NCBI GenBank assembly: GCA_945643635.1
Contig: CALZFC010000035.1
Coordinates: forward strand, 1,153,501-1,217,500
Source: Allodiplogaster sudhausi
Taxonomy: Eukaryota > Nematoda > Chromadorea > Rhabditida > Diplogasteridae
Reading direction: 5' to 3'
DNA length: 64,000 nt
Shown: positions 3,930 to 27,976 of the stretch, one piece after another
How positions within the stretch are numbered: position 1 is the stretch's first letter
Layout of the letters: each line of letters begins with the position of its first letter
Notes under the pieces: model-generated
Told to the model about the DNA's origin: nothing
Database searches by the model: none
What the model saw: only the letters and a program-made list of their open reading frames with translations
Program-made: the position numbers and the translations under genes

Positions 3930-5165
3930 AAATTAATTATTCTTGGTAGGAATTTGTGGGTACATCAGCTTCCACAGGCAACTTCCACACTCCACTATTG
4001 CCCGGGATTGCATTTGACCCAACATAACATGAAACCAGTAGATTTGACAAACCCGCACAATCAACGAGGGCCGGTAATTAGACAGCGTCGGCAGCGGAGA
4101 TGATTTCAAGAGCGCACTATGATGACATCCTGGTGAGTGCAGTTGAATGCCATCTTCAGCTTGTCGACCATCTCGTCTGTAGAAAACATGCTTATCCACA
4201 GGCCTCTATTATAAGGAAATATTCGTTCTAAAGGGGAGAACTGGATGAGGCTCTTCTTTGATAATGGTCGCAGCAAATAGACTTATAAGAATGAACATAC
4301 CGACATTCTTGGAAGCACGCTCTGTGCACGGAAGTCACGCGAGAACTTGGCTCGGAGGTGGCGCACTCCTCCAATCAATATCATATACTTATTGGCCAAC
4401 AGAAACTCGGAAGTGAGCAATTATTTTTAATTAGAATCATCGGTATTTCGGAAAGGTGTTTCTTACGATAAGACTAAAATATCTGTTCTAAAACAGTCTT
4501 GTTTGATAGAATGAAAAAAGTGATTCTGCGGTTGAGTTTCCATCGAGAGAGAAAAGAGAGATAGAGAATGGATACCTTAATGGCATAGTAGATGATGAGC
4601 TGAGCGAGAGAAAACCCCCGAGTAGCTCTGCAGAACATCATCGTCCACGAAATCGGGTGCCTTCAATCTATTCAATACTTTAAATTGATAGAACCCTCAT
4701 CAACTCCTGCACTGCTCCAGTGGCGTGGTCAGGTTTAAAATACTTATTCCTACCATTCTTACCATTATGGTTAGACTGTTCTCAATTAAAATTCCTTGCT
4801 AAATTTGAAATAATTTAAATATTTTTCGTATTGGCGAAAAAATCTGGTTTTTTTTTGTAGGAAATAAAAGAAGTTTTGAGGAAAAATAAAGGAAGAAGGC
4901 AATAATATAAGTTAAAAAATATATAAGGGAAGTAAACAAGAATGAAATGGAACTTTTAAGAATCCTGCTTCAAGTGTTAGCAACTTTTCCCATCAAATGA
5001 ACCCTGACCTTGATGCCGGCCGTTCCTGTGAAACTACACGGCATTCGAATGGATCCAGCGCCGTCTCCGCCAGTGCCGAGGATGCTTCCGCTGACGGCAA
5101 AAATCGCCGCTTCGCCGCCAGAAGATTAGCCCGTTGTTCGGCTTGCGTCCAGCGGATTCATCGTC
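3930..5165 (-). pseudogene. Amidase-signature (fatty-acid amide hydrolase-like) pseudogene, 3' part
   Basis: On the minus strand, 5,165-4,995 reads RTTG-stop-SSGGEAAI, then GSILGTGGDGAGSIRMPC and FTGTAGIKV. This is the amidase signature (normally GGSSGGEAALI...GGSIRIPA...GFKPT), which carries the nucleophilic serine of the Ser-Ser-Lys triad. A TAA replaces the second glycine of the GGSSGG loop. Further down the same strand are pieces in the expected order for FAAH: DFVDDDVL near 4,650; LIIYYAIK bounded by splice-like sites near 4,590; EMVDKLKMAFN near 4,150; and a tail (IPGNSGVWKLPVEADVP) ending at a stop near 3,935. Another stop (TGA) follows IIVRS. The N-terminal half with the catalytic lysine is not found. 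The two stops and missing half make this a pseudogene; the FAAH subtype is inferred from the C-terminal pieces, which are weaker than the signature match. Confidence 0.6.
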
Positions 5166-5169
5166 CAGC

Positions 5170-6180
5170 CTTAGAGAGATAGCTTACAATTATTAGCAAC
5201 GGAAAACTTAGTAAGTACAAGTTCGCTATCCCATGCCTAACACCTTCGAGCTCCAAAGAGAAGACACCCATTTGATGAGCTGTGACATATCGATTTCGCG
5301 CTGTGAAAGAGTGATGAATATCATTCCCACGTATGCATAATAAATAAGGGCAGTCATGACCTTCATCGAAGCTTCTAATGACCCGTTACTTGCTTAATAG
5401 CTTCGGTGAGTACCAATCCAAAAAAAAAATTTGTAGAAGGCCATCAAACAGGCTATTTTAGCATCTAAGCATTTCTTTTTCAGTCATTTACAAATACATT
5501 CTATTTCACCACGTGCGGATATAATTCATACCGTAAATAAAGATTAGAAATATCTTACATTTTGAAGAAAATGAAAGCTCAAGAATAGAATATCCGAAGA
5601 AAAGGAGAAAGATTAAAAACAAATAGAATTCTCAAATACATTTAAAAGAAGTATGAAAAGTAAAGCAGATTGAACATTCACGGAGATACGCAGTCCATTT
5701 TACTATGCTCATTAAACGTGCGCAATGCACAGTTGAATGTAACAATGGGAAATACGAAGGAATGAGAATGAAAAAGAGAATAACCTTGAGCAAAGATGAC
5801 ATCGGCCGAGCCGACGGAATGCAACGCGGCTCGCTGCAGACTGAGACGGCTGACGCAGCCTCTCAGATGGAGCCGAGAACATATTCTAAAGGAAATAGAA
5901 CAGTTCAGTTCTAGATATATCTTACAAAAGTCTAAAATCAAAGCAAATATGAAAAAAAAAACAATCCAAGAAAGCAACACTCAGTCGCAGTTATCTCTTT
6001 GACCCGGCAAACGCGCCAAGAAAATGCGGCTGCGCATCAACTCAAATGCATTGCGCGATACTCAGGCTGACAATGTGTGTTCGGCTTTCATACGAGTGTT
6101 TTCTTCTTTCGTTCTTTCTTTTTTTGATATTTCGTTGTTCCCCTTAATAAAAAACTTTTTAAATGTAATGGTTCAATGTT
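5170..6180. other. No gene recognised
   Basis: AT-rich DNA. A GC-rich island at 5,800-5,885 is open on both strands for 60-100 codons but has no recognisable motif and poor splice borders. Confidence 0.4.
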
Positions 6181-6189
6181 ATTGATGTC

Positions 6190-7482
6190 TTAAGCTACTT
6201 TTAGTGGCCACATTGCGGAAGTCGGAGAGCGCCTCCGCCGGCGCCACGGGACGCTAGGACCAACATCTGGGGTCTGTTTGTGATTGATTCTTTTGGTTTT
6301 TATTCTTCTTTTTTTTGCTAATTAATTTATACTGTTCGGGGCTATGCACCTGATCTCTCGAATTATTGCACCTTTTCCGCTTTTTATGAGCTAATATAAC
6401 ACTTGCGCTTGATAGAAATACTCTTTGATAAGGCAATTTTTTGTTTCTACGTGAAGTCCGCGCGGACCATGACGCTTGATGAGTCGGCCTACTCGACGGT
6501 GGCCGCCGAGAGGGCATCTCGGCAACGAGCAGTGACTCGTCTTCGCAGGTTTGTCTTGTGTAACTTATACCTTGCAGAGCCAATCGTACTCGCAACAATG
6601 CGCTGCTCTTTTGCATATTCTAGAACATGAGTTAAGCGCTATAATGATGCATTACTAATCTTTAATTTTTTTACTTTCAAAGACATATTAATGTATAAAT
6701 GCAAAACTTTTGTTTTCTTTTTTCAAGATCGGATGACTTAGTGTTGTCAAAACGCTTTAGAATATTGTTTGATCGATTATAATTTTGGGTTTTCGATGGG
6801 AGGCGATAAAAACGCTTTCAGCTGTTTGCATGTGATTGAAGCATTACTTGGATTCAATAATGTAAGAAGGGATACGATTCTTTCGAGGTTAAGGATGTGA
6901 ATTCGTGTGATTTGTTTAACTAATTGAATTGGAGCGGGGTTATCTAATGTGCTTTTGGGTTATGAAAATAATTTGGATGCTTTTTTTTATTAATTGAAAT
7001 ATATTTTACTTTGTAGTTGCGGTCGGAGAACTCGGCCGCCGGCGCCAGCGATCGCGAGGTGCGACTCCATCAAAGGTTTATCTTTTTTTTTATAAAGACA
7101 TGCAAAGCCTTTATCTTTTAAATGGTTATCTTAAGTTCATTTTTATTCTTATAATTAATCTTTCTCGTACATCCCTTAAAGTATTCCGCCGATGCAAGTG
7201 TGATAATCTTGGCTTGTGTTCCAGCCGATGTTGTAAGTAGGGGGATTGATGAGTGAAGTGATATACCATGTTACTGGGTAGAGTTTCTTTACTTCCTTCG
7301 CTGTCATTGCTTTCTTCCATCCTAACCTTTCGTACTATTGCAGTTTCGTGACGTCTCCGGGTTCCTCTCCGAGACGCCCTTCGTCATCTCTCTCCCGTCT
7401 TCTACATCCTCAACGGCAACTGCTCCCCGGCGTCCATTCCTTCTCCACCACCACCACCACCCCTCGACTGCTCCCCCACATT
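6190..7482 (+). CDS. Candidate terminal exons of an unknown gene
   Basis: Three GC-rich islands sit in AT-rich DNA. One at about 7,018-7,059 reads LRSENSAAGASDRE between an acceptor (CTTTGTAG) and a donor (GAG|GTGCGA). The next runs from an acceptor (TTGCAG) at 7,345 to TGA at 7,482, in the same phase 0, and reads FRDVSGFLSETPFVISLP followed by a Ser/Thr/Pro/His-rich tail. An island at 6,455-6,550 (SARTMTLDESAYSTVAAERA) ends in CAG|GTTTGT but its phase does not join well. Islands at 6,200 and 7,018 share the core TTGCGG...TCGGAGA...CCGCCGGCGCCA, so they may be duplicated exons. The minus strand is also open there. Low-complexity tail and short exons keep confidence low. Confidence 0.3.
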
Positions 7483-10841: not shown

Positions 10842-12056
10842 TTATTTCATTTTAGTTGAAACGAGTGTTTCCTTCCATTCTAAATTATTTTCTTCTCGTC
10901 TACGATGGGCCTTGGCCGCTAGACGATGGCGACCCAACTGTTCTTTGTTGCTGTTCTCGCTGTCGCGCCTCCATGGCATCCGGAATAAGCCGATTATGAA
11001 CCTTAAATATTAATACCGCATACATTTCATATAATAAATTTAAAATGAACCTGAAAATATTATGTTAGGCTATTTTCTTCGCTTGACTCCTTCAACTAAT
11101 TAGATTTTTTTTTTCTCAAAGTGCATTATTTCTAATTTCACTGCAGTGAGTGCATTGTTCGCAAAGGCAAAATATGCATTTAGTGAATACATATTTACTG
11201 AAATTAGCATAATTGATTTAGCCCTTGTTATCCTTTTTGACCTTTTTTTGCTTGAGAAACGAAATTATTTTCATGAGACCTGCGATATGGGCCGACACAA
11301 TAGAGCATAGCAATGGCATTCAGCGGAGGTATCACATTGCCGATCTGGAAGAACAAATTGACAAACATTTTAATGATGTTATATATTTTCTTAATTTTTC
11401 GAATTTTTCTTTCTCCATCGTCAGACGTGCACAATTGGCCTCTAATTAGTATGACAAACTAATTGTACGCGTAGCAGTACTACTGACCGCTGTTGGATAG
11501 TTCTCCAAGAAGGCGTTGTTGGCCGTCTTTGTAATGATGAGATAGACGCCAAGCAAGCAGAGGCGTGCGCCGTAAGAGCCTGACAAGCAAGCAAGCACTA
11601 TACGAACAGCATTTTGTACATACATACATAATGAAATTAACAAATCAAATCAATATATTGTGGGCGTATGCCTTCTCTCAACAATACTATACGGCTGCTC
11701 TGTTTATATTGAAAATAATTTTAGTGAAACATCCGTTACAAAGAATGGCCGGTTAACGAATATAACCGGCCGAAGCATGACATGGAGTTTACAATAACGG
11801 TAATTTTTTATCTGCTTCTCTCGTCTGGCGTCCATTCTTTCCTTGAGGATAAGCACAGTTTTAGCGGTCCCTGTACAGTCTCTTTAGCAGAGATAAGAAA
11901 GATGGTTAAGAGTGATCAGAAAGATCTATCAACAGTGATAAGCTGCCGATGCATGACGCGCGTCTTGTCGCTCATCGTCGAGGACAGCGCGCCGAGCCGG
12001 CGGAGGGGGGCGCAACCAGAAGATCAGCGTGTACTCGGATAGCGGAGGGAGCATCG
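10842..12056 (-). pseudogene. srd-class chemoreceptor, 3' half (end of TM5 to C-terminus), cut off by a transposon
   Basis: The 3' part of the receptor whose 5' part lies at 26,970-27,976. Minus-strand exons: 12,056-11,934 (LSEYTLIFWLR, then MSDKTRVMHRQLIT), 11,579-11,488 (ALTAHASACL and GVYLIITKTANNAFLENYPTA, TM6), 11,344-11,280 (NVIPPLNAIAMLYCVGPYR, TM7) and 11,001-10,842 (basic tail ending in TAA, with AATAAA overlapping the stop). Last-exon phases agree. The MS-KT--MH-QL motif between TM5 and TM6 and the PYR after TM7 are typical of nematode Str/Srd receptors. Two one-base frame breaks are visible: at the run of six G at 12,005-12,010 and near 11,550. Either the gene decayed after the insertion, or these are sequencing indels in homopolymers. 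Confidence 0.75.
12055..12056. repeat. Left CG target-site duplication of the 14.9-kb transposon
   Basis: CG directly precedes the left terminal repeat; CG directly follows the right one at 26,970-26,971. Keeping one CG joins the srd codons TAC TCG ATG CTC in frame. Confidence 0.75.
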
Positions 12057-12077
12057 CACACAAGAAAAAAAACCATT
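12057..12077. repeat. Left terminal inverted repeat of the 14.9-kb transposon
   Basis: Pairs with 26,949-26,969 (20/21 positions). Beyond base 21 the two ends differ, but both continue with words such as ATACCGTA, ACCGCTGG and AACGGT. Confidence 0.85.
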
Positions 12078-12089
12078 GGAGGTGCGAAA

Positions 12090-12360
12090 TCGCGATACCG
12101 TAGGTGTTGAAACCGCTGGAAATAACGGTTTTTTGCCTTTTCGCGACCTGGGCGCGCCCTCAAGCAGCAACGGTTTTTTCCCCAGCTAGCATACCATTAA
12201 AATGAGTGGTTTACAACTGGCATCTCGGCGAAGCATACGGTGTTCCGTGACGCATTTATGGTTCGCTGGCGCACCTGTATTTTCCGACTGCACGTTTTGG
12301 ACGCATGAGGTGTATCATGGCGCACTTATAGTATGCTGGCGCACTTGATTTTCTGGAGCG
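12090..12360. repeat. Left subterminal repeat region
   Basis: Contains ATACCGT, ACCGCTGGAAATAACGGTTT, GCAACGGTTTTTTCCCC, and several copies of TGGCGCACTT/CTGGCGCACCTG. ACCGNT/ANCGGT words recur in the right end at 26,795-26,940. Subterminal motif clusters are the usual transposase-binding sites of CACTA-type elements. Confidence 0.5.
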
Positions 12361-12727
12361 AATTTCCTCAGGAAGATGGATTATGTCGCTGACAACCATA
12401 AATGATAATGTTTTAATTGGTTCTCTTGAATTTCTTACTTACTTTCAGCCTTCGCCTCCTGCCGCATGAAGAAGAGTCCCTGCCGGGGTCTCTCGCGCTA
12501 GAAGCGACGTCAGGTATTATCATGTTCTGTTTTATTCAAAATTCAGATTGTTTTTACATTAGATTTATTGCTTTTGGCTTGAGACTGTTATTATCAACAC
12601 AGACAACTTTTCCGTTGCAGGTTTACACACACAAGAGGCCCTCCGCGAAACAGTAGCGACTTGGCGCATTTAAGGTTCGATTCTATGAAAATTTTCATAA
12701 AATAGTATTACTCAACTTTGCTTTCTT

Positions 12728-14512
12728 CACAAATATTTTTATTTTCACGTGTCTGCCGCGGCTCGCTCGGTTGCAGCGAATCAGCAGGAGCGACTACGAC
12801 GGTATGCATAATTTCTTTGTGGAAATGTTTTTTTTGATGAAATGGAATCTTTTTAAATGGATGGGAATGGATGCAAGTGTTTTTTTTAGAAACACATTAA
12901 TTACTGATTCTTTAAAAAGGGTAGATATTGTAGATAATATTCTCCTATAATTCAGCTTCCACATCGGGTTGCTCGAGTTGTGAAGAAGCAGAGGGGAGCG
13001 AGGAGTACGGGACTGGTCGATAACTGCGTTAGTTATGTTTCCTAGAGTTGACTTGTAGCCGATTTTTTTTTCAGGTTTCTTTCGAAACAAAAGTTTTTGG
13101 CTGAATCTTAGAAAGAGTATTTTGTGAATATTATTCTATTCTTTTGTGCACAGTGGTGGACGATCACTGTGGTGGGCATATTTTCTTTATGGGAATTGGA
13201 TGAAAATGTTTTTTTTAGAAACACATCTAATAACAAAGCACTTTTCTAAAGAATTGTTATTTAAGAATATTTTCTTTCCGTAATTCAGCTTTTATTTCTT
13301 TGCAGTTCCGCTGGTTGTTGGGAGGCAGGCAGGGAAGCTGAAGCACGGTGGTGATTGTCACTACTGTAAGTTTTTTTATAAGGGAACTTTAGGTAGATGT
13401 TTTTTCTTCGAAATAAAGCCCCTTTCTTCCAATGAGTAGTTATTTTAGATTATGTTTCTTTCGTAATTCAGCTTTTTCATCTTTGCAGTACCGCTAGTTC
13501 TCAGTTCATCTTTGCTAGTTCGCGAGGCAGGAAGAGAAGGAGCAGTACGCTGGAAGAGGATCCCCACGGTATGTTTTCTTTAAGATAACTTAAAGTACAT
13601 TTTTTTTCTTCGAAGCAAACCCTCTTTTTTCTAATGAGTATTTATTTTGGGTTATTTTCTTTTTTTCTTAGTTTAGCATCAGCATCTTTGGAGCACCGCG
13701 AGTTGTAGCGAAGAGGCTAAGGAAGCACCAGCAGTACGCTGGTGGAAGTTCTTCACGGTATGTTTTCTTTAAGGAAACTTTTATTTCTTTAAGTAAGCAG
13801 TTGATTTATTTTCGAAACGAAACAAAGCATTTTTTTAACGAGTTGTTATTTAAGAATATTTTCTTTCCGTAATTCAGCTTTTATTTCTTTGCAGTTCCGC
13901 TGGTTGTTGGGAGGCAGACAGAGAAGCAGAAGCACGGTGGTGGATTGTCACTACAGTAAGTTTTTTATAGGGGAACTTGAAATAGATGTTTTTTCGTCGA
14001 AACAAAGCCTATTTTTTCTAATGAGTAGTTATTTTAGAATATTTTCATTTCGTAATTCAGCTTTTCCATCTTTGCAGTACCGCGAGTTCTTGCGAGGCAG
14101 GAAGCGACGCTGAAGCAGGCTGTTGGATAGTCACTGATGTAAGTTTTCTTAAGAGGAACTTGAAGTAGATTTTTTTATTCGAAACAATTCCTCTTTTTTC
14201 TAATGAGTAGTTATTTTGAGATTATTTTCTTTGCGTAATTCCATTTCTTTGCAGTACCGCCAGTTGTGTCGAGGCAGCAAGGGAGGCCGAAGCAGGGTGT
14301 TGGACGGTCACTACTGTAAGTTTTTTATAGGAAACTTGAAGTAGATGTTTATTCCTTCGAAAAAAATCAAATCCTCTTTTTTTCTAATGAGTAGTAATTC
14401 TAGATTATTTTCCTTTCGTAATCCAGCTTTTCCATCTTTGCAGTACCGCGAGTTGTGGCGAAGCAGCAAGGGAGGCTTAAGCAGGCTGTTGGACGACCAC
14501 AGCTGTCAGTTT
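12728..14512 (+). repeat. Tandem array of exon-like units, period about 180-210 bp
   Basis: At least seven units begin with the acceptor TTTGCAG or TTGCAG, after 13,305, 13,488, about 13,685, 13,894, 14,077, 14,254 and 14,443. Each then has 65-85 bp beginning TACCGCGAGTTGTGGCG or TTCCGCTGGTTGTTGGGAGG and ends in a donor (GTAAGTTTTTT or GTATGTTTTC). A conserved 100-bp intron-like spacer (TTCGAAAC, TCTAATGAGTAGTTATTTTAG) follows. Two or three decayed units lie at 12,728-13,190. Units differ by substitutions and small indels, and some are closed in a given frame, so they look like repeated non-coding or alternative first exons rather than one protein. The array ends about 110 bp before the ATG of the transposase-like gene. 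Confidence 0.75.
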
Positions 14513-14623
14513 TTTTTTCGCCACATTCTGTTATTAATGGATTCTTCTGTTTTTTTTAATCTCTTCAATTAGTTAACTTACTACTGTGACACTTTAAGAG
14601 AACCAAATTACACCACTATTTAG

Positions 14624-17097
14624 ATGGAATGCCCTGTCGAAGGATGCAACGAATGGCTGGAGTATAAACGAAGAGTTTTGGAACATCGGCGACACGATCA
14701 TGGTGGCAGCGGTGCCTTGCTCTGCAAGATGTGTGTCGTCTGGCAGCGATTCGGCAAAATGAGCTCACTACAGCAGCACTGCACACGTTTTCACGACGGT
14801 TCTATTCTCTCAGGTGATTATTTATTAGTTTTACGCCCTCTTACTTGAAGTACTGTATGCCTTGACAGACAGCACAGTCGTCTTTGGTGGTCAAGAGAAG
14901 AAAAAAATTTCGTGCACTTTATTTCTGTTGTTTATTAAAATAAATAGAAAAATTCAGCTTCGCCACCGCCAAGACCTCCAAATGTCGTTCCGCCTGCTTT
15001 GAACGTTGCTGAAGCAAATGGTTCCTATTCGCCAGAGCTATTTATTCTAAGTTTCCAGAATCTACCAGCTGTGCGAACGAGCTGCAACAATTCTTCGCCC
15101 AGCAGATGGGCAGAGGAGTCCCCCGCTCTTCGCTGGACAGCTTCGCCCAGTTTCTGCAGCGTGTTCTGCATGTCGGCGAATCCGGTGATCCTAGGGCAAT
15201 TGCCGAAACCGATTCGGCCATTTCCTCCTGTTTGACGCATTACAAAAGGACCCAGCTTGGCACGCGTAACGGCGATATTCTAACACCTCAGAAATTTCAG
15301 ATGGGCGTAATCCAGACGACCAAGAGAGATAGACACGGCGAAGCAGTCCGTGTAGAGCAAGGAGAGTACTTCTATGTGTTCGAGCTTGAAGAAGTGCTTA
15401 GACAAGCAGTACAATTTGCTCGCTCCCTTAACCTGCTCAAGTCCTGCTGTAGCGATAGAATATGCTGCCACAAACAGGGAGAAAGGTATAAGACCGTGGC
15501 TGATGAAACTCAGCATGCAACCCCACTTCCTTTCCTGTTGTATGGCGACGATGTCTCACCCGGAAGCTCCCTTGGCCCGAAGGCCGCCGCCAACTCGCTT
15601 TGTCTTTTCCAAATCAAGCTGGCAGGGCATCACTTGGACGCCTCATCGGTATTGGCGTCCAAGTTTGTCTATGCCACTGCCTATGCGAAAGACCACTCTG
15701 CGCATTCCTTCCTTCCCATCCTTGATGTCCTAAAGCAGCAGCTGGCCAGCATTTATGATAGGGGTGGCCTTCGAATTGGAGATGAACTCTTTCACCCAGT
15801 ACTCCTCTCTGTGATTGCGGATAATAAAGCGCATTATGAGTTCCGCGGCCTCAAACTCAATTACAACCGCTGTCGCCTCTGTCTAGTTGACTCTGCCAAT
15901 TTTCTTACTGTCACGAACGAGTCTCAAGTGTAGCTGAAAGATAGGCAGTGGTACGACCTGGTTTGCAGCGCAGGATTGGCCCAGCACCATGGCTTCAAAG
16001 ATGCTTGCCCTTTGGATGGCATTCCGGGCTATGATTTTATGAATGATTGCTCGATGGACCTAATGCATGACGTGTTGGAGGGTGAAGCCCAACGAGCAAC
16101 CATTAGGCTTCTGCGCGCATTGGATCGGCGTGGGCTTAAGTTGCAAAGAATCAACGCGATTATGTCCAATCTCCCATACGGAAAGCAAGATTCTTCATCC
16201 CGCCCCTCCCCATTCAAGGTAGATGTTCTGTCTGGCACTTCGATCTCCCAGCGGGCTTCCCAGGTTCACACTCTAATGAGATTGCTCCCGCTTGCTCTTC
16301 ATTTTCACACCGATCTCTCCGACTTCGTAGAGCGGGAATCCTTTGTGCTTCTTGGAAAAGTTCTCCTGACCCTTCTGCAGCCTTCCTTTACGGAGCGAGA
16401 TCTGGCCAGATTAGAAGATCTTGTGGCAAGATACATTGATTCCGTCCGCGAAATTGTCAACCTTTTCCCTGGCGAGGTTTCGATGACGATCAAATCTCAC
16501 CACCTCGTTCACTATGCAAGATTCGTGAGATTGTATGGACCCCCCATCCTGAATTGGTGTATTGATTTTGAGCAACTTAACGCATAAATCAAGTCCCACT
16601 CCTACATGTCTAGGAACGCTCAAAACTTGCCATTCTCCATGATCAACCACGCGCAGCATTTCCTTGCATCTCAGCGCGCATCATTCAATTTGGAAGCGTT
16701 GCCGCGAGCAGGTGTACGGTATTACAGCGAGCTTCCATCCGATTCTCCCCTGATCTCCATCATTGATGACCTCGCAATTGTCGTAGACATGTTGTGCTAT
16801 AGAATTGACTACCATGGAATGTGCTACAGTGACCGCGATATTGTTGTCTTGTCAGCAGGCGCGCTCCCATCCTTTGGTCAGATTCGCTTTGCTGTTTACG
16901 TTGATGGTGAGTGGCAACTTGTGATTCAAAAGTGCGAAACGATCTCTTGGCTTGATTCTATCAACTGTTACACTGTTCAGATGTCCGATGTTCTTTGTGT
17001 TGTTTCCTTCGAAAATCTTAACTCTGCTCACCCACTTGACTCTTACTTCTTTGTTGATGTTGTGTACATTCCAATCAGACATTTCCCTTTGGAATAA
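14624..17097 (+). pseudogene. C2H2 zinc-finger transposase-like gene of the 14.9-kb transposon
   Basis: Three exons in phase: 14,624-14,813 encodes two C2H2 fingers (C-x4-C...H...H beginning CPVEGC, and C-x2-C...H...H beginning CKMCVVW); 14,958-15,020 is Pro-rich; 15,059-17,097 is the core. The core has the landmarks of a widespread animal transposon protein family: LLYGDDVSPGSSLGP, then FHPVLLSVIADNKAHYEFRG, CRLCL, DLMHDVLEGEAQRA, SHHLVHYARF and LNWCIDFEQLNA. Acidic residues in YGDD, IAD and MHDVLEGE are candidate catalytic positions of a DDE/D fold. Two in-frame stops interrupt it (TAG at 15,931-15,933 and TAA at 16,585-16,587) without any frameshift. That suggests recent loss by point mutation; suppression or editing is possible but unsupported. 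Confidence 0.65.
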
Positions 17098-17207
17098 AAG
17101 AAGAATTTCGCTTTCAAATGAGTGTTATTCCTTATAAAAATTAAGGCGTTATAACGCAATTACTACTTGTAAACTGATTTTAAGCATATATTTGATTTGT
17201 TAATTTA

Positions 17208-19627
17208 GAATGCGTTTCCGGTTGCAAGTTTTGGCTGAAGATGGAAAGTCGGTTGAAGCAGAACTTGGTTCCGATGAGTCCGCTGCAACTACGTTGGAGG
17301 AGCTGACGATTTAGCTTTTTGGCCGTTACGAAATCCATCGCTCGCGAATTTGTCGAGTTACAAGATCAGTGGGTCGTATCGAGTACCCCGTTTTGGGTAT
17401 ATTCCCCGATGACGACTGCCAGCTAACAGTCTATCTTGCTCATTGTCAGGAAGAGGTTACGCTTGTAAGTTACCCAAAATGTTTAATTCACTTTTCTATG
17501 TTATCCTGCACAAGTTGAGTTTGCTCATTTGTAGAATGCTGTCCATTCTCAAGAGGAATACAGCTCATTTTCAAACGTTAGAAATTCTAAACTATGTGCT
17601 TCTTTATCTTTCAAATGACGATATTTTCCGTTATCAGGCTCGTGATTCCGCTTCTCCCTCGCGAAAGAGAATAATGCTGGGTAGTTCTGACGATGAAGAT
17701 GAAATCGATGAAATTGGAAGTCGTCACGAGAGTAGCTCTTCAGCTTCTGTACTGGATGGTCATTGCGTTGGCGAGCTTCTGAAAAGTAAGCTGTTTATGT
17801 TTATATTTAAAACAAAACTCGCCCCCCCCCTCAACTTAGATCGCGAAAATCGATCTGGCGGAGATGTGCTTGTCCAAAGACTTAATGAGAAATTAAGTAC
17901 CGCGTCCATGGAAGGTACGCTTTACATTACAATTTCGTGATCAAAGTGAATTAGATATACATATTCAGATATTCTGAGGACTCATCCAGAAACTGATCTC
18001 ATCCTCTCCTCTCTGCGCTCCGGTGACATCACCGAAGAGTATCGTTGTAACGTCAGGAGGCAGTTCGTTCGAAGAGTCGGCGAATATGTTATGCAGCATG
18101 CAGACAAGTGAGCCAATTCTCCTTATTCACTTGTGTTTTATTTACCTTAATATTATTTTCATTATCTTCTTTACAATATTGAAACAATCTTCCATACCTT
18201 CTTTAGCAAGAATCGTCCAACTGCTCGTGAGATTGTCTGCTTCTTCACCAGGCTCATGCACCCTTTCCCAAAGACAAACCAGGTTTCACTTCGTATTTTT
18301 TTTTAATTCATCCTTTATGACTGCAAATAACTTTAGAGCCTACTGCATATTTACTTTAGGCGCCCTTCGTCTGCGGCAACAAGAGCTTCCTCATCGTGTA
18401 CGTCAGCAATCGGCGAAGACGCATGGCGCTTCATGGAGACGCTGTCCTGAGACCATACAAGAGGAAGAAGATGGACACGTCTCAAAGGAACTTCGAAGGT
18501 CAGCGTCTCATCGCCATGCAGTTGAGGCACTTTCCTGATGACAGTGACACTGCGCTTCAGATGCTCGAAGAGTCGCGGTCGGTCTTTCTACACCTATTTT
18601 TGAATATTATTGTTATTTATAATTTGTATTCATTAATTAATCGGAGGAGATTGTTAGAGTCACTTATTTTTAATGATATTCTGCTTATGGCATAACCTGT
18701 ATATATATTACGGTACTTTTATTAATAGAATAACAATCGTAAATGAATTTGCCTGAATTACGGCCTTTATTTATTCTTAAGTGACTACCGACTCCAGCTA
18801 TGTCGTGAGATGGGTGCTGCGAAGGCGATTGAAGAATTTAGACAGCTCTCTTCTTCCAAGCAGGTACTTTTCTTGATATACGGCAATACCGTACTCGTTT
18901 GTAAAGAGCAGGTCTAAATTACTGTAGTTCTTTAATTGCAGATACTGTCCGACTTTGACAGAGGATTCAAGGTCGACTCCAACGCCTTTGTGCAGAAGTG
19001 GCCCCGAATCGAGGAGTATCTGAGCAGCATATTCAAGACTAACTTCTCCTCGGCCGAGCATATGTCAATTTCTGCCATGAATACAGTTACAGGTTCAGGT
19101 AAGAGGAGAATTTTTTTAAATCAATTTCCCGATTTTTCTGTTCTATGTTGAAAAGAGATGGTTGCAGAAACAGCATCTGTACAAGCCGTTCTCGCCGTGG
19201 TTGCCCACTTTAAGAAGTTCTGCCCACGTAAGCAGATGTCACGCTTTGGCAGAGTCTTCTCTACATTCCTGGTCAGACAGTTTGCTGGATACTTTTACCA
19301 AATTGAAAGCAGCAATAGATTTGTATGTGATTTTCTTTGATAAGTGTTCTCTTTTAAAATGTTCTTTGCGCTTTAGAGAAATTGTCAATCAATACTTATA
19401 GTCTGAGCCTGATGCAAGGCACGTCGTCGATTGACTCTGCGAAATGGGCCTCCGTCAGCCGCTCGTAGTCAAGTACGGTCAGAGCAGGAAGCAGTTCTCC
19501 GTATTTTGCAACGTCAGCGTAAAGTTTTCTTTTTGCAATAGTTTCATCTCTCGAGTCAGAAAAGGTGCAGTACTGTCCGGATATAAGATCATGAAAATTG
19601 AGGCTGTTTTGCTTCTATCCATTTCTA

Positions 19628-19669
<42 letters not shown>

Positions 19670-19938
19670 GTCTCGCTCACTGCCTGCATATCTCTGCTAG
19701 AACAGGTACAAGAAAACAGTAAATAAAAGATGTATATTTCCAGGCAATCGAGATTCTCTGCGGCGAATCGTTCATCGAGGCTGTTGTTGTTGCCCTGGCC
19801 TGCCACTTCCTCTTCCATCTCCGATTCGACTCTGAGGTTACCGACATCTGGGGCGTGTTCTCGCTTCTCATCGGCGCGCCACATTCGGTCAAGTCGAATA
19901 CAGCTATCAACCTGGTAGACAGCATCCAAATACATTTG
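17208..19938 (+). pseudogene. SAMD3-like accessory gene of the 14.9-kb transposon
   Basis: A multi-exon gene just downstream of the transposase-like gene. Exons as read: 17,208-17,464; 17,638-17,785 (acidic, DDEDEIDEIG); 17,840-17,914; 17,969-18,107 (DILRTHPETDLILSSL, RRQFVRRVGEYV); 18,207-18,282; 18,360-18,577 (RRRMALHGDAVLRPYKRKKM); 18,782-18,863; 18,942-19,098; about 19,169-19,321; about 19,402-19,513; 19,743-19,938 (ends QIHLV-stop). The layout matches proteins annotated in many animals as sterile-alpha-motif domain-containing protein 3-like, which travel with the same transposase family. Exon 1 has an in-frame TAG at 17,312-17,314. The exons near 19.2-19.5 kb are uncertain in frame. Function within the element is unknown; a DNA-binding or repressor partner is a guess. 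Confidence 0.55.
19620..19670. repeat. (TC)n microsatellite inside a SAMD3-like intron
   Basis: CT-rich run with interspersed TATCTC units between the last two exons of the SAMD3-like gene. Confidence 0.9.
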
Positions 19939-19939
19939 G

Positions 19940-20554
19940 TATGATTCTTCTTGTCAAATTTTATCATGGATTTGTAGAGTGATCTGTTGAGTTTCCTAGA
20001 AATAGGCGAAGAATAACCTTGTAAAAAAAAATGTTTTCATCATATTTGCCAAAGATTGTATATGTATTCTGTGAGAACGCGTCTTTTGTATTTCTTCCTT
20101 CTTTGTGAAATTTTTTAATCATTGCTTTAATTTTAACCGGGTGCACTATGTGAATGTATTAATTACGAGTAAAAATCTAGTTTATCTTGTAGCATTGTTT
20201 GGAATATCCTGTGAATCGTTGCATATTGTTTGGAATATCCTGTGAATGCCTGTACATTTCTGTCAAAATGTCGCTCGATTCATTATGGCGCTTACATTCC
20301 GCTTGTTATCACATTGACCACTGCATAACAATAAAAACTGTTGAATGCTGTAATTGCAAAGCGTAAGTTGAAACATGGTAAGTGTATGCTTATATGGATG
20401 CAAAGTTTAGCCTGCCTGCAATTGGCAGCTTAAAAAAAATCGATACATAGAGAACGAAGCTCTCACAATCAATTTACCACTCCCTCCCTCACAGTTGCTC
20501 TCCAGCTCTCTCTCTCTCTCACACTCACTCTCTCTCTCTCTCTTTATCTCTCTC

Positions 20555-20597
<43 letters not shown>

Positions 20598-20822
20598 GTC
20601 TGTCTGTCTTACTCTCCTCAACAAGCGGTGAACACTACACTGAACGAATGCAATTAGCACATTACAGCTAATCAAGAGAGATTCGGACTTCACCGTTTGG
20701 TAGTTAATTAAGTATTGAAGTAGTGAAAGCAAACGCATCATTGAGACTAAATTAACCAAATGCAACATGAATGAACTGCAAGAGATGAAAGACGACAAGT
20801 TTGAGAAAAATGCTGTCTTACA

Positions 20823-20871
<49 letters not shown>

Positions 20872-20880
20872 TCTCTCTGT
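19940..20880. repeat. AT-rich spacer with (TC)n/(TG)n microsatellites
   Basis: Runs of CT occur at about 20,505-20,595 (ending in CTGTCTGTCTGTCTG) and 20,826-20,882. A near-perfect direct repeat GTTTGGAATATCCTGTGAAT lies at 20,198 and 20,228. No gene is seen. Confidence 0.7.
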
Positions 20881-20974
20881 CTTTCTCAAGCACGCGCTCG
20901 CGACCTTAACATAGCTTCATGCCGACCTCCGTTTTCTATTGGCTATCTTCTTCCGGATTCAGTCGCGGGGTACG

Positions 20975-21068
20975 GGTGGTGTAGTGGTCTAAGGCGCGCT
21001 TGCTGGGAAAATGCGAAAATGGGTGGTGGCTTGGTTGGGTACGGGTTCGCTTCCGCGCGGGTGCAAAA
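20975..21068 (+). repeat. tRNA-derived (SINE-like) sequence
   Basis: GGTGGTGTAGTGGTCTAAGG resembles a pol III A box, and GGGTTCGCTTCC, about 50 bp later, resembles a B box. The T-arm does not pair as in a real tRNA, so this looks like a degenerate tRNA-derived short interspersed element rather than a tRNA gene. Confidence 0.35.
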
Positions 21069-21117
21069 CTCTCTGTCTGCTTACAGGTTCACCGTCGTCC
21101 ACGGCAACTCCACTACG

Positions 21118-21125
21118 CAAATCAG
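21118..21125. repeat. Left 8-bp target-site duplication of the Mutator-like element
   Basis: CAAATCAG stands directly before the left terminus (GGCGCTAGGTCG) and again at 26,481-26,488 directly after the right terminus (CGACCTAGCGCC). Eight to eleven base pairs is the usual duplication length for Mutator-like elements. Confidence 0.85.
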
Positions 21126-21997
21126 GGCGCTAGGTCGTTTGAGAACCGCCGGATGAGACCACCCCGGATGAGAACTTTGGCCGGTCTGATGAGAACCGAC
21201 CGCAATGAGAACCAAGCGGATGAGAACCAAGTAGATGAGAACCAAGCAGATGAGAACCGACCGCAATGAGAACCAAGCAAATGAGAACCAAGCAGATGAG
21301 AACCGACCGTGATAAGAATCGCCCAGCTGACAGGGATGAGATCAGAGCAGAAAACACAAATTTTAGGTTTGCCCCGGATGAGAACCGAGCGGGAAATATC
21401 GTTTCCGGGTATCTACCAGATGAGAATCGAGCGGGAAATTTCGTTTCCGGAAACGTACCGGATGAGAACCAAGCGGGAAATCTTGTTTTCGGGAATGTCC
21501 CGGATGAGAACCAAGCGATAAAAGTTGTTTTCGGGTATGTCCCGGATGAGAACCAAGCGGGAAAAGTTGTTTTCGGGCATGTCCCGGATGAGAACCAAGC
21601 GGGAAAAGTTGTTTTCGGGCAAGTCCCGGATGAGAACTAAGCGGGAAAAGTTGTCTTCGGGTATGTCCCGGATGAAAAACAAGTGGGAAAAGTTGTTTTC
21701 ATGTATGTCCCGGATGAGAACCAAGCGGGAAAAGTTGTCTTCGGGTATGTCCCGGATGAGAACCAAGCGGGAAAAGTTGTTTTCGGGCATGTCCCGGATG
21801 AGAACCAAGGGTGAAAAGTTGTTTTCGGGCATGTCCCGGATGAGAACCAAGCGGGAAAAGTTGTTTTCGGGTATGTCCCAGATGAGAACCAAGCGGGAAA
21901 AGTTGTTTTCGGGCATGTCCCGGATGAGAACCGAGTGCTAAATATCGTTTCCGGGAATGTACCGGATGAGAACTGAGCTGAAAAGTTCATTTCTAGG
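21126..21997. repeat. Left long TIR of the MULE: subterminal words plus 42-bp tandem repeat
   Basis: The outer part has irregular GATGAGAACCGACCGCAAT-type units about 15-27 bp apart. From about 21,375 a 42-bp unit begins (core GATGAGAACCAAGCGGGAAA, then a GTTGTTTTCGGG block and CCCG). About fourteen units are present. Since 42 is a multiple of three and the unit lacks stops in several frames, long repetitive open frames arise on both strands; I do not regard them as genes. Confidence 0.9.
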
Positions 21998-22635
21998 TTT
22001 GTCCCGGATCAGAACCTAGGCGGAAAGTCCATGTTTGCCCGGAATAGAACCGAGCGGGAAAAGTTATTTTTAACGCATGAGAGAGAAATGAAATGATGTC
22101 TAGTGGTGTCCCGATGACAATAACAAAACGTGCTGATCCCATTTCATGCCATCATTCACAAATATATTTTCACTCAGACTACGGCTCCCGTTATTATGTT
22201 ACTAACACAGAGCAGAATCGATTTAGCACATCGAATATGAATCGCATCATAATACTTGCACCACAAAAATGACTGAAATACAAGAAAAGAGATTCAATCC
22301 ACAGCCAATCACATGATATATCTGAATAATTGGTATACTTCACATGAACAAAAACACAGAGAATTATTAGATATGTAGTAAGCAGGAAAAACAAGGTGTT
22401 TAATTAGTAAAAGACGATTAATTTTTTGAAAAATATTTCTGCGAACCTTTTCTGCGAGTTGATCAAGAGTCTTATTTTCTCAACACAGAACTCAGCTGAT
22501 CTAAGAGAGCCGCATACTTAGTAAAGGGGGTAAGGAGAACTCGCTTCAGCTTCTCGTTCTTCTCCGACTCCGCAGACTTGCGCGCTCCTTAGAGCATAAA
22601 CTTTACTCAACAAAGAGAGAAATGTTTTGGTATGC

Positions 22636-25024
22636 CTAATATAAGCATATTTGTGCCCAACAACTCAATGGAGATTGCTTACCACGTACACCTGCGACAT
22701 TGTGGGGAGCAGCTGTATCTTGTCGCACTTTCTCCTCCTCCAGCTGAACTGCGTACACCGCTCTAGATGGGCGCACCTTTCTACCTCGTGACAAATCGCA
22801 GCGGGCAACAGCCTGGAAAACATGTATCGGTATAATTTCATTTAGCATGAATGCAATCCTGCTAAATTACAGTACGTTCCAAAACAGTAAAGAAGATAAG
22901 ACCAGTTTTGTTTTATTAACTACCCATCATTGTGAGCCGTAAAGAAAACTAACCCCGAATTGGAGATGAAAAGATTCTTTGCTGTTGTTGCAGCGAGGAT
23001 CCCCATTCAATGTTGTGCTGTAGATGCTCCATGACTCAGGAGAGAACCTGATATTATTACTCGTTTACTCTTACAATTAGTGTTTTCATGAAGAACATTT
23101 TGGGAAACACAACTTAGATAATCGGTGAGTACTGTAACCTTGCCGCTGAGTTTTGGCTGCCGAGATAAGTCCGCTCATGATAGTCCAGAAGAGCTGTAAA
23201 AAATTTAAGTATATTTCGTACAAACGCTCTTATACCTAGAATGCACTGAACTCCTTACCATCGGCACTCGCTGGAGAATCCGCCTTAATCGCATAAAATG
23301 CGTCCGGAATGAGGTACGGTGGGAGCAGTGGAAGAACTAGCAATCGTCTATAGCACGTGAGCAATGGTCCAATCTAAGAAAAAAATTATAACACCCATTT
23401 GAGCTTTTGGTAAATAGCAATTATACGAAAATTACCAGTTGAGTGAGGAGATGAAGTGAAGCAGCCTTCTTTCGCAGATTCTGATTCTTGTGGAAATAAC
23501 ACAAGCGAAACTCGACTGCTGGGAAATACAGCTTTAACGCAGCCCGTGGAGAGATCTCATAGTCTAAAAAATTCAGCTGTAATTCTTTTTGCAGCGAAAA
23601 TGCTAGATTATTTTGGAACAATGCGTCAGGATCTCATAAATAAAGGGGGTAAACTATACTTAACCAACCAGAGTATGTATATACGTGATACGCTCCAGTT
23701 GGCGAGAGAAGGGTCTTGTCTCAATCTCACAATGACGCGATCGTAATCCGCTGTAGGGAAAAGCCCCGCCCGGTTGCCTGCCATGAATACCACCACGGCA
23801 AGGAAAAACTTGTCTCGTTTCTTAAAGAAAACAAATTATCGCACCCTTTAACAAAATAAACCTCAGAAGTACTTTGTCTGTACTATAACAAAAATATTTA
23901 CGCGGGCATGCATCGTCCAAATGAGATCGAATCCCTCTGGTGCTGCTTCGAAAGTTGCATCGATAGAGATCTGAGCACAGCATAATCATGTTAAAGATGT
24001 CACAAATAAAAATGTGTAATCTTATTAAAATCTTATGCTAATAGGGACAATGGAGAAGAAGTAATTATGAAATAGTTTCGGTAAAACAAAAGGCTTACTT
24101 CTTTTGATTCGGCTAGGATTTGCAATTGTGCGTCAGAAGCAAATATCACAAATCTCTTCGAATCCGCAGCCCCAGAGTCATGGAGCAGCATTCGATCTCC
24201 TGCTAAAGAACAAGGACATTTCAACTAACAACAAAACGAGATAATTTTATTTTTAAGCGTAAAATCACTGGAATCTAATAAATAAAAGTAAAACTAGAAC
24301 TATGAAAAATACAACTAGAAATAAAATTGACAGAATGTCGAGGCGAATTTTCCGTAGAAAGAGAATGGCGAAGTGTCAGCAAGGATTTCATCGCCATCAC
24401 GAGGTCTCGCTCTTAGATAGCACTTCCTTAACGCCTCATCGGTACCTAATAATAGCACAGTTATACTACTCAGCGTACAGTCTGACAAAAAAAAACGGAA
24501 AAACTTTAGCAAAGTTGTAAGTTCATCGCCAACAGAATGAGAATCATATTAGGAATAAAATGTGAGAAACATATTGTGACAATTCGTGGGCTACTAACCA
24601 ATTACATCAAGGGCTGCCACAGATAGGCCAGCTTTTGCTAAGACGATAGCTTCTCGTGGCTTTAGAAGTGTTGATTGCGCTTTGCGGGTAAGCTCACGCC
24701 GCGCAACAGTCGCCTTATAAAGCAAGCGATTTGGATATGTTTGAAAACTAGCTAAGCATAGTCAATGAAACAAAAATAAAGGATGCAAAATAGGACAAAT
24801 GAAACCTCCGCAGCTGAGTCGTCAGGGAGATGCGAATGTGTTCCATGAACAGAAATCTGTTTAGATGGTCGAAAATATGCCGTTGCATCGCAGCCCGCCT
24901 TCCTCTTCAAGCAGTGAAGCAGCAAAGAGCCATCACGAAGAGTCTTCTTCTTATTGAAAAGATTGCCATCTTTTGAGAAAACCTCCGCAGGTTTTCCTCG
25001 AGGCATCTTAGAAAAAGTATTCAA
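22636..25024 (-). CDS. MULE transposase (FLYWCH-type N-terminus, DDE domain)
   Basis: Minus-strand exons as read: 25,024-24,806 (FLYWCH-like zinc-binding region, LHCLKRKAGCDATAYFRP with HGTHSHLP); 24,713-24,599; about 24,445-24,336; 24,199-24,099; 23,970-23,902 (ISIDATFEAAPEGFDLIWTM, first catalytic Asp in IDATF); about 23,815-23,710; about 23,565-23,435 (DYEISPRAALKLYFP, then CYFHKNQNLRKKA, second Asp and the C-x2-H landmark); about 23,375-23,266; about 23,196-23,135 (LLDYHERTYLGSQ); about 23,045-22,955 (NNSKESFH, catalytic Glu); about 22,815-22,680. This is the normal order of MULE transposase blocks. No stop was noticed in the landmark exons, so it may still be active, but not every junction was phase-checked. 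A start at MNTFSK (25,024) or MPRGK (25,006) is possible. Confidence 0.78.
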
Positions 25025-25674
25025 ATGGTACGAAGGTATAGCGATCTCATAGATATATGCTCCTACTCAATATTAGTTGTCAATCTTTTTGAGGGTAGAA
25101 TAAACATTCTGGAATATGTTTTCGGTTTTCCTCATAATTTTTATCACCAACGAAATCTTGCAGGAAATTCTTTCTTATCTTAATCATAACATAACCTCAA
25201 AGGATTAACAAATGTCAAAAGCACATGCCAGAATCTTGCCTTTACACGCTCCAGTACTCGAGTTAATAATTTAGATTTATAGTGAATTAAATAATTTAAG
25301 TATAAAGAACGCGAAACATCTACGGAAACTTCAAATATTTATTGTTAGGTTAACACACCTTGAGACACCGAGATTTGGTGACTGCCTCAATACGACCAAA
25401 CTGCTTCGTTCAGCCCCTTCTGTACTTCTGGTCCTGAAATACAAAAATAACAATTTAAATACACCAAACAAACACATTAAAAATAGAATAGAAGACGATA
25501 TACCACGATTGTTCTTTAAAAAAATGGCACCACATTGCGCAAGCAGGTTTACAACCTGTTCCGTGCAAGTTACATAATAGGGCGCAGCTGTAGTGCGATT
25601 CAAAAGTGATGTGAGTGATGATTTGAAATGGGAGAGCATTTTATTCCCAGAGAAAGAATTTTCTTTTATATTTT

Positions 25675-26480
25675 CTTCCTAGAAATGAACTTTTCAGCTC
25701 AGTTCTCATCCGGTACATTCCCGGAAACGATATTTAGCACTCGGTTCTCATCCGGGACATGCCCAAAAACAACTTTTCTCGCTTGGTTCTCATCTGGGAC
25801 ATACCCGAAAACAACTTTTCCCGCTTGGTTCTCATCCGGGACATACCCGAAGACAACTTTTCCCGCTTGGTTCTCATCCGGGACATACATGAAAACAACT
25901 TTTCCCACTTGTTTTTCATCCGGGACATACCCGAAGACAACTTTTCCCGCTTAGTTCTCATCAGGGACTTGCCCGAAAACAACTTTTCCCGCTTGGTTCT
26001 CATCCGGGACATGCCCGAAAAGAACTTTTCCCGCTTGGTTCTCATCCGGGACATACCCGAAAACAACTTTTATCGCTTGGTTCTCATCCGGGACATTCCC
26101 GAAAACAAGATTTCCCGCTTGGTTCTCATCCGGTACGTTTCCGGAAACGAAATTTCCCGCTCGATTCTCATCTGGTAGATACCCGGAAACGATATTTCCC
26201 GCTCGGTTCTCATCCGGGGCAAACCTAAAATTTGTGTTTTCTGCTCTGATCTCATCCCTGTCAGCTGGGCGATTCTTATCACGGTCGGTTCTCATCTGCT
26301 TGGTTCTCATTTGCTTGGTTCTCATCTGCTGGGTTCTCATTGCGGTCGGTTCTCATCTGCTTGGTTCTCATCTACTTGGTTCTCATCCGCTTGGTTCTCA
26401 TTGCGGTCGGTTCTCATCAGACCGGCCAAAGTTCTCATCCGGGGTGGTCTCATCCGGCGGTTCTCAAACGACCTAGCGCC
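25675..26480. repeat. Right long TIR of the MULE
   Basis: Reverse complement of the left TIR, starting TAGAAATGAACTTTTCAGCT and ending CCTAGCGCC. It has roughly two fewer 42-bp units than the left copy but keeps unit variants in the same order, including the odd CATGTATG unit. The arms are therefore nearly identical apart from a repeat-number change and scattered substitutions. Confidence 0.9.
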
Positions 26481-26488
26481 CAAATCAG
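26481..26488. repeat. Right 8-bp target-site duplication of the Mutator-like element
   Basis: CAAATCAG, identical to 21,118-21,125. Confidence 0.85.
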
Positions 26489-26794
26489 ATCAGTGATATT
26501 TCAGTCACTTTTGCGTTTTTTTAACACCTTATTAGTTTCTAGTTTCTTCTTTATTAATGAAATTATAACAAAAGAAGTGTTTAATCCAACTAAACCACAA
26601 AAATTGAGAAATTGTCGCCTATTTACGTGGTTCCAGCCATATTTTAAGTAGAATAGGGAAGGAGAGAGAAGTAGACAGCGAGATAGAAGTAGGGAAAGAA
26701 GAGATATTGAGAGAAAGAGAGAGAAAGAGAGAGAGAGAGAGAGACGAAAGAGTGAAAGAAATGGCCAAAAACGAGGTTCAAGCCGCGTCCTCCT

Positions 26795-26948
26795 TAGCTG
26801 CGAAAATACCGTTGCCGCAGCGGTTAGCTGCTTTTTGACGGTTTCTGACCAGCGGTTTGCGGCAACGGTTATTATTTGCGAATTAGTACGGTTAATTCCC
26901 TAGGCTTCTACTTCAACGGTAAATACCGTAGCCAAAACAGTAGTTTTT
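26795..26948. repeat. Right subterminal region with an imperfect palindrome
   Basis: ATACCGTTGCCGCAGCGGTTAGC near 26,808 pairs with the GCGGTTTGCGGCAACGGTTAT block near 26,850, which would form a hairpin of about 25 bp per arm. Further ACGGT/ACCGT words run up to the right terminal repeat. The left end shows the same words without the full palindrome. Confidence 0.6.
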
Positions 26949-26969
26949 AATGGTATTTTTTCTTGTGTG
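26949..26969. repeat. Right terminal inverted repeat of the 14.9-kb transposon
   Basis: Complement of 12,057-12,077 at 20 of 21 positions. CG at 26,970-26,971 completes the target duplication, and srd coding sequence resumes at 26,972 on the minus strand. Confidence 0.85.
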
Positions 26970-27976
26970 CGAGTACGCCAGGCACACCATGAACAGGCCA
27001 CTCTCCAATTTGGCCGTACCTGGAATTGTCGATCAATCGATATTGACCTTTGTGAATTTACCTGAAACGAACATGTCCTCATGGCCGTAGTGCGGAAAGG
27101 ACGCTTGCACGAGCGCTTTCATGTCGTCGTGGCCGTCGTTGACGTAGATGAATATTACCTTAAAAAGGTGTTTTTTTTTCTCCTTTTTCATAAATGTGCG
27201 TGTAAAAAATTAAACTTCATAAGAAAAAAAAGGAAGATAAAAGTATGAAGAAAAAGAAGAAAAAAGAAAAAATAACCATGAGCGAAGCGGTCGGCAGAAC
27301 GAGCAGCAGGCAAATCGCGTAGACTGTCATCTTCTTGGGCGCCGCGTGCCAGAGGACGTGATGGCGGAAGGCGAATGAGAAGGTGACGAGGTAGAGCGAG
27401 TGCATGGAGAGCAGGAAGTGCCCGCACACGGGCACGTAGCAGAGCGCGGCCGTCGAGGAGAGCGGGAGAAGGGGAGAAAGGAGCAGAGGGCATGCGCCCA
27501 GCTCGACGTACGCCACGAACGTGCCGTCCGAGACGATTCTTGTAATTAATTTATGACGTCATCGTTCTAATTTTTTTTAAATCGTGCCCTCCGTGATGAT
27601 TCTTGTAAAATTTATGACGTCATCATTCTCATTTTTTATCATCGTCGACCCTCCATGTTGATTCTTATTATTAATTTATGACGTCATAACTCCTCTTTTT
27701 TCTTAAAAAATGTTATAAGACAAATTGAAGTAAAAAAAAATTTGCATAAATGAAGAAAACAAACTCGTACTTTGGATGCACGACCAGAGCGCAGATGGCG
27801 TAGACGAGATCGGATAGGGTGAGCGCATTGAGGAGGATGGCGTACGACTTGAGAGAAGGCGGCGTGCAACGGTGGATGACGACGAGTGCGATGAGGTTGA
27901 CGATGCAGCCGAGGACGCTCGTGGACACGGCGAAGCAGAGGAAGGCTGTGTCGGTCGAAGAGGAGGAGGAGCGCAT
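26970..27976 (-). pseudogene. srd-class chemoreceptor, 5' half (TM1 to start of TM5)
   Basis: Minus-strand exons, all in phase: 27,976-27,771 (start MRSSSSSTDT, TM1 and TM2 with SLKSYAILLNALTLSDLVYA), 27,538-27,277 (IVSDGTFVAYVELGACPLLL and the TM3-TM4 block ending KKMTVYAICLLLVLPTAS), 27,158-27,062 (VIFIYVNDGHDDMKALVQAS, extracellular loop with FPHYGHED) and 27,019-26,970 (TAKLESGLFMVCLAYS, start of TM5). The LKSY...LLN...SDL block, the DGTFVAY-GAC turn and the PHYG...VSG loop are hallmarks of the nematode Srd family of seven-transmembrane chemosensory receptors, expressed as a rule in ciliated sensory neurons. The fifth transmembrane exon is broken by the transposon at 26,969; its continuation is at 12,056. 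This half shows no frame damage. Confidence 0.85.

Follow-up and report, generated by a model that had tools for sequence, protein, structure and literature searches.

How does a chemoreceptor exon come to be cut in two by almost 15 kb of mobile DNA, and is that DNA a single transposon? The question is raised by a 64-kb stretch of the Allodiplogaster sudhausi genome (contig CALZFC010000035.1, positions 1,153,501 to 1,217,500), which is referred to as the window and within which all positions are counted. In this window an srd chemoreceptor gene is interrupted, in the exon coding for its fifth transmembrane segment (TM5), by an insertion of 14,913 bp (12057..26969, plus strand). The initial annotation, made from the sequence alone, described one autonomous transposon of 14.9 kb. 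The length of the insertion stands but its unity and autonomy do not: it is composed of an outer element with CAC...GTG ends (9,550 bp) and of a Mutator-like element (MULE, 5,355 bp) nested within it, and the transposase of the outer element is broken. Taken by themselves, the borders, the duplications and the nesting are virtually beyond doubt. The whole account, in which a cut-and-paste element of the CMC clade (CACTA-Mirage-Chapaev type) entered the TM5 exon and a MULE is nested inside it, merits good confidence.

An srd exon restored by a single CG

The terminal inverted repeats (TIRs) of the outer element (12057..12077, plus strand, and 26949..26969, minus strand) are identical at 20 of 21 bases when one is read as the reverse complement; elsewhere in the window the left end is matched at no more than 17 of 21. 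Each is flanked by a CG dinucleotide, at 12055..12056 on the left and 26970..26971 on the right, as the initial annotation had read them. When the minus-strand flanks are joined with a single CG, the frame reads MVCLAYS-MLPPLSEYTLIFWLR and is open and transmembrane-like across the junction. The one-CG join gives a gap-free srd exon, whereas joins with zero or two CG break the frame. On the minus strand, the part of the gene model before the break (26972..27976) comprises the exons 27976-27771, 27538-27277, 27158-27062 and 27019-26972. The part after it (11240..12054) comprises the rest of exon 4 (12054-11934), a TM6 exon at about 11582-11460 and a TM7 exon at about 11352-11270, placed by comparison with Pfam Srd and with a paralogue.

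The protein spliced with one CG scored 83.6 bits against Pfam Srd (PF10317, cut-off 22.8), and its alignment ran to position 200 of the model. Alone, the half that precedes the break scored 78.2 bits, and the joins with zero and two CG 78.4 and 78.5 bits, all of them ending at model positions 180-184; only the one-CG join extended the match beyond the break, for a gain of about 5 bits. Two of the pieces after the break matched Srd weakly and collinearly with the first half (211-233, E 0.012; 263-288, E 0.17), one piece was unmatched, and the post-break exons strung by hand across their frame breaks scored 28.3 bits. The split gene is an srd chemoreceptor, hit in its TM5 exon. When the receptor was compared with a set of 5.8 billion proteins, 835 candidates were scored and none had E<=10.

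The initial annotation had pointed to related strains or species as the place to look for an empty site. It was found in the window's own genome (one assembly, 351.8 Mb in 382 contigs), in the uninterrupted srd paralogue L043 (within C27:2928485-2931598), whose intact TM5 exon has exactly one CG at the junction. Over 236 bases, L043 is 86% identical to the joined flanks, with six gap positions, none of them at the junction. Together with the 83.6-bit join, this empty site bears out the proposal that the exon can be mended to the base by keeping one CG. It also identifies both CG copies as the target duplication, along with the left-end alignments of related copies for the left one and the comparison of flanks for the right one.

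Copies of the outer element in the genome

A search of the genome with the left-end DNA gave at least 53 matches, some of them pieces of one copy: the outer element is a member of a multicopy family. Thirty-five matches reach to within 8 bases of the left end of the query, and 22 of these start at base 3 (12057), 10 at base 1 or 2 and three later, so the CG at 12055-12056 lies outside the element. Flanks were studied in 28 copies, of which 20 were first chosen by their left end and eight were added; with the window copy this makes 29 elements. Nineteen of the first 20 align from the equivalent of 12057, and L017, whose end is mutated, from 12059. The right end, which was not used for selection, is the same in 16 of the 20, i.e. 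in all those that have it within the fetched stretch. Counting the window copy, CACACAAG forms the left end of 27 of 29 elements, the exceptions being L017 and L030 with an altered base, and CTTGTGTG forms the right end of 17 of 18, the exception being L024, likewise with an altered base. The element borders first drawn from the host gene are therefore those at which other copies end. The remark that such elements are rarely bounded so exactly was not borne out for this genome, since 18 of the 29 elements, including the window copy, could be bounded at both ends in the fetched stretch. Compared with 14 relatives, the window copy is between 99.1% and 91.9% identical.

The proposed 2-bp target duplication is likewise a property of the family. 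Matching dinucleotides flank 15 of 16 of the first copies, 16 of 17 elements with the window copy and 17 of 18 when L031 is added, which has CG on both sides; a third base extends the duplication in 0 of 17. Copies whose right end lies outside the fetched stretch (L016, L025, L026 and L028; L029, L030 and L032-L036) are excluded from this count.

Classification of the outer element

The outer element very probably belongs to the CMC clade (CACTA/Mirage-type), within which no subfamily is named. Membership is deduced from its ends, the length of its duplication and the order of short motifs in its transposase. The transposase frame (15013..17097, plus strand) contains D179, D271, C287-C290, H496-H500 and E520, a D-D-CxxC-HxxxH-E order recognized by eye and without alignment to a known member. 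CMC/CMCT elements were taken to have 5'-CA...TG-3' ends and target duplications of 2-5 bp, with the features of the clade drawn from the portions consulted of PMC12730594 and PMC6004678; the family has CA...TG ends and duplicates 2 bp. It departs from the plant-type CACTA/EnSpm elements in its CACAC terminus and its 2-bp duplication, a 3-bp match being found in 0 of 17.

Clustered subterminal repeats are a hallmark of CACTA elements. The outer element has four ACGGT/ACCGT motifs in its left 250-bp end (12057..12304) and six in the right one (26721..26969). The 1255 other overlapping 250-bp segments average 0.25 such motifs and hold at most 4, and five of them hold at least 3. These clusters look like CACTA subterminal binding sites and can be regarded as putative sites. 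Downstream of the transposase lies a second multi-exon gene (approximately 17210..19941, plus strand), for which no Pfam match was found.

Several observations weigh against the CMC assignment or its supports. The transposase matched no Pfam family at E up to 10, nothing in the PDB and, in NCBIfam, one entry at chance level. Against the 5.8-billion protein set, 7999 candidates were scored with none at E<=0.001, and with residues 150-560 alone 8000 were scored with none at E<=10. A single-sequence AlphaFold model of the transposase was unusable (mean predicted local distance difference test score, pLDDT, 34.9). One 250-bp stretch away from the ends also reaches four ACGGT/ACCGT motifs. Finally, the flanks of L018 differ (TG vs CC), the sole miss in 18. 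A scan of viral contigs with a 217-residue piece of the transposase gave two pattern matches, none confirmed as relatives.

The outer element might be a DDE transposon outside the CMC clade, with CAC ends and a 2-bp duplication by chance, and the transposase that matches no profile or database entry of a known transposase speaks for this. Such a coincidence is nevertheless improbable, because the CAC...GTG ends, the 2-bp duplication, the D-D-CxxC-HxxxH-E order, the second multi-exon gene and the subterminal clusters jointly fit the CMC type as outlined in the portions consulted of PMC12730594, PMC6004678 and PMC4158355.

Origin of the insertion and the nested element

An assembly misjoin, or two srd paralogues brought together, could also leave receptor halves on both sides of the insertion; srd genes are multicopy, and the evidence comes from one assembly, without reads. 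This is very unlikely: both flanks match the same paralogue, L043, in collinear order, with comparable identities (78.7-85.5% for one flank and 79.6-85.9% for the other) and no base missing at the junction. As both halves match one paralogue, the outcome that the initial annotation had named as fatal to its reading, i.e. halves matching different paralogues, is not what is seen. At 79-86% identity L043 appears too distant for an ordinary allele.

The second component of the insertion is the MULE-type element (21126..26480, minus strand), flanked by two copies of the 8-bp duplication CAAATCAG (21118..21125 and 26481..26488). Target duplications of MULEs are 8-11 bp long, typically 9 bp. The element is bounded by long inverted repeats (21126..22032, plus strand; 25676..26480, minus strand), both composed of 15-bp and 42-bp tandem units, which match in a 635-bp segment (97% identity) and a 180-bp segment (98%). 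Between them, approximate transposase exons (22900..25007, minus strand) code for a FLYWCH-like N-terminus (E 0.049, under the Pfam cut-off) followed by a putative MULE domain. It counts against this identification that the Pfam MULE match (PF10551), made on a rough hand splice, reached 20.3 bits (E 7.7e-4), under the cut-off of 27.6. Over the full arms, 816 of 904 aligned bases are identical and the differences lie mostly toward the inner ends.

The 5,355-bp block was seen in none of the 20 fetched relatives of the outer element. The unoccupied site is present in 18 of them, with an exact CAAATCAG in 16 and one changed base in L025 and L028; it was not found in the remaining two of the 20, L017 and L026. 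These empty sites resolve the 14.9 kb into two elements, one nested in the other, and we think that the outer element was already there when the MULE arrived. Without the MULE and one copy of its duplication, the outer element measures 9,550 bp and runs from CACACAAG to CTTGTGTG. A single autonomous transposon, suggested by the one pair of 21-bp ends that bounds the entire insertion, is thus refuted and hardly credible any longer: relatives have the same ends minus the block, a MULE-like gene and a separate set of long inverted repeats belong to the block itself, and the outer transposase is broken. That the CG could instead belong to the inverted repeat, with no target duplication, as its presence at both ends and its being its own reverse complement would allow, is refuted with practically nothing left in its favour by other copies that have TA, CA, TG, TT, AA or GA there, the same on both sides, and by the one CG retained in L043.

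The dinucleotides duplicated by the family are CA (5), TA (4), CG (3), TG (2), TT (1), AA (1) and GA (1). Since many are used, CG is not special, and a target specificity for CG is ruled out. Pyrimidine-purine steps make up 14 of the 17 duplications, against a background of 0.219 computed from this window only (binomial p 2e-7), and a by-eye count of the left flanks alone gave 21 of 29 (p 9e-9).

The preferred sequence of events would be as follows. A CMC-clade cut-and-paste transposon of about 9.5 kb would have entered the TM5 exon of the host srd gene, its transposase cutting at the CAC...GTG ends and inserting the element where the target had been cut with a stagger of 2 bp; repair of the gaps would have duplicated the target dinucleotide, here CG. 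The staggered cut is proposed by analogy with DDE transposases. The MULE-type element of 5.4 kb would then have inserted in the outer copy, making its own 8-bp duplication, and we infer that copies with less damage could supply the enzyme in trans. Direct observations are the borders, the two duplications, the two empty sites, the number of copies and the private lesions described below.

Decay of the window copy and selection on the family

The window copy of the outer element is not autonomous. Two stops in its transposase frame, at 15931-15933 and 16585-16587, are private to it, as every other copy covering these positions (13 of 13 and 12 of 12, respectively) has a sense codon there. At 15019/15020 the window copy is about 150 bp shorter than each of the 13 copies that span this point. 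The two private stops and the missing segment lead to this conclusion. Readthrough of a conserved stop was considered for both transposase stops and rejected, as the other covering copies have sense codons. In the second gene, the stop at 17312-17314 corresponds to a sense codon in 9 of 11 copies, and L016 is disrupted; this stop does not speak for private decay, since L017 shares it and it is therefore not private.

Among the 20 copies, seven gave no match to the transposase and 10 have stops, gaps or breaks in it. An unbroken frame is found in L011 and L017 (residues 3-694) and in L027 (51-694). The ratio of nonsynonymous to synonymous substitution rates (dN/dS) between subfamilies (L011/L017 vs L023/L024/L027) is 0.20-0.27. 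It is 0.30-0.90 among L023, L024 and L027, 0.41 for L011-L017 and 0.97 for the window copy against L011, the closest pairs resting on few changes. These ratios point to the usual picture, in which the transposase is under purifying selection between subfamilies as long as the family is mobile, and individual copies decay afterwards.

The receptor gene has decayed as well. Compared with L043, exons 1-3 align without gaps, 5 nt are missing soon after the junction in exon 4 and 22 nt are missing in the TM6 exon. Counting the insertion, the alignment shows at least three lesions, which make the receptor a pseudogene. L043 has a peculiarity of its own, a short extra copy of the start of the TM5 exon (about 1431-1454) just upstream of that exon.

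Other features of the insertion and of the window

Upstream of the transposase frame, the outer element contains a tandem array of units of about 183 bp (13232..14516, plus strand). In five of these units GCAG and GTAA-like signals enclose an exon-like block of 60-61 bp, as though repeated duplication had multiplied a non-coding leader exon. The array is followed by an exon-like stretch with C2H2-like Cys/His residues (14624..14812, plus strand; weak Pfam zinc-finger matches, E >=0.016), probably an N-terminal part of the transposase. A stretch recalling tRNA promoter boxes (20970-21117) aligns in other copies and thus belongs to the outer element. The suspicion of a tRNA-like box pair near 20970-21060 was not supported by a dedicated check, and no tRNA or Rfam family was found in the 64-kb window. 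Two relatives carry a tandem duplication of a portion of the outer element's right end region (L020, about 5699-6322; L022, about 4473-5080). Outside the insertion, positions 34000-64000 are very dense in CT/GA microsatellites, which give long spurious reading frames on both strands.

Significance and comparison with known systems

The event belongs to ordinary genome biology: a chemoreceptor pseudogene holds one dead copy of a transposon that is multicopy and probably of CMC type, and a MULE is nested in that copy. The locus is of value as a clean, fully resolved nested transposition with both empty sites within one genome, and it shows three lesions combined in one chemoreceptor pseudogene. 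From it the borders and the duplication length of a probable CMC-type family in a nematode-like genome are established, together with the family's target preference. By itself the locus raises no long-standing question; the pyrimidine-purine bias is its most interesting by-product and the one result that specialists might follow.

In the literature searched on 2-bp duplications, Mirage and nematode CMC elements, no title or beginning of an abstract describes the family, which is not proof that it is undescribed. It is conceivable, though doubtful, that the family represents a distinct nematode CMC-clade lineage, with 2-bp-stagger cuts that prefer flexible pyrimidine-purine steps (TA, CA, TG, CG) and with a tandem exon-like leader array. 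If so, its target rule would differ from both the 3-bp CACTA rule and that of TA-only lineages.

The receptor resembles the srd chemoreceptors of Caenorhabditis (PMC2576165, portion consulted) in its Pfam Srd match and in a PYR motif close to the end of TM7, and it differs from them in being a pseudogene with three lesions. The nested element shares with Mutator-like elements its long inverted ends, an 8-bp duplication and a MULE-domain-like transposase. It differs in duplicating 8 bp rather than the typical 9 and in a Pfam match that stays under the curated cut-off.

For the outer element, the plant CACTA/EnSpm elements described in the portion consulted of PMC4158355 offer the same plan, a transposase and a second open reading frame (ORF2) between short inverted ends starting with CAC. 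They have CACTA ends and 3-bp duplications, in contrast with CACACAAG and 2 bp here. Mirage, a CMC lineage known from C. elegans (PMC12730594 and PMC4455052, in the portions consulted), shares the probable clade and a nematode host. Close parallels by description are ENS1_Cis of Ciona savignyi and the CMC-NA elements (PMC6004678, portion consulted). These CACTA-type elements combine CAC...GTG ends with 2-bp duplications, a precedent by which that pairing is not new. The outer element differs from them in its full length of about 9.5 kb and in its host, and shares with them, on description only, both its CAC...GTG ends and its 2-bp duplication.

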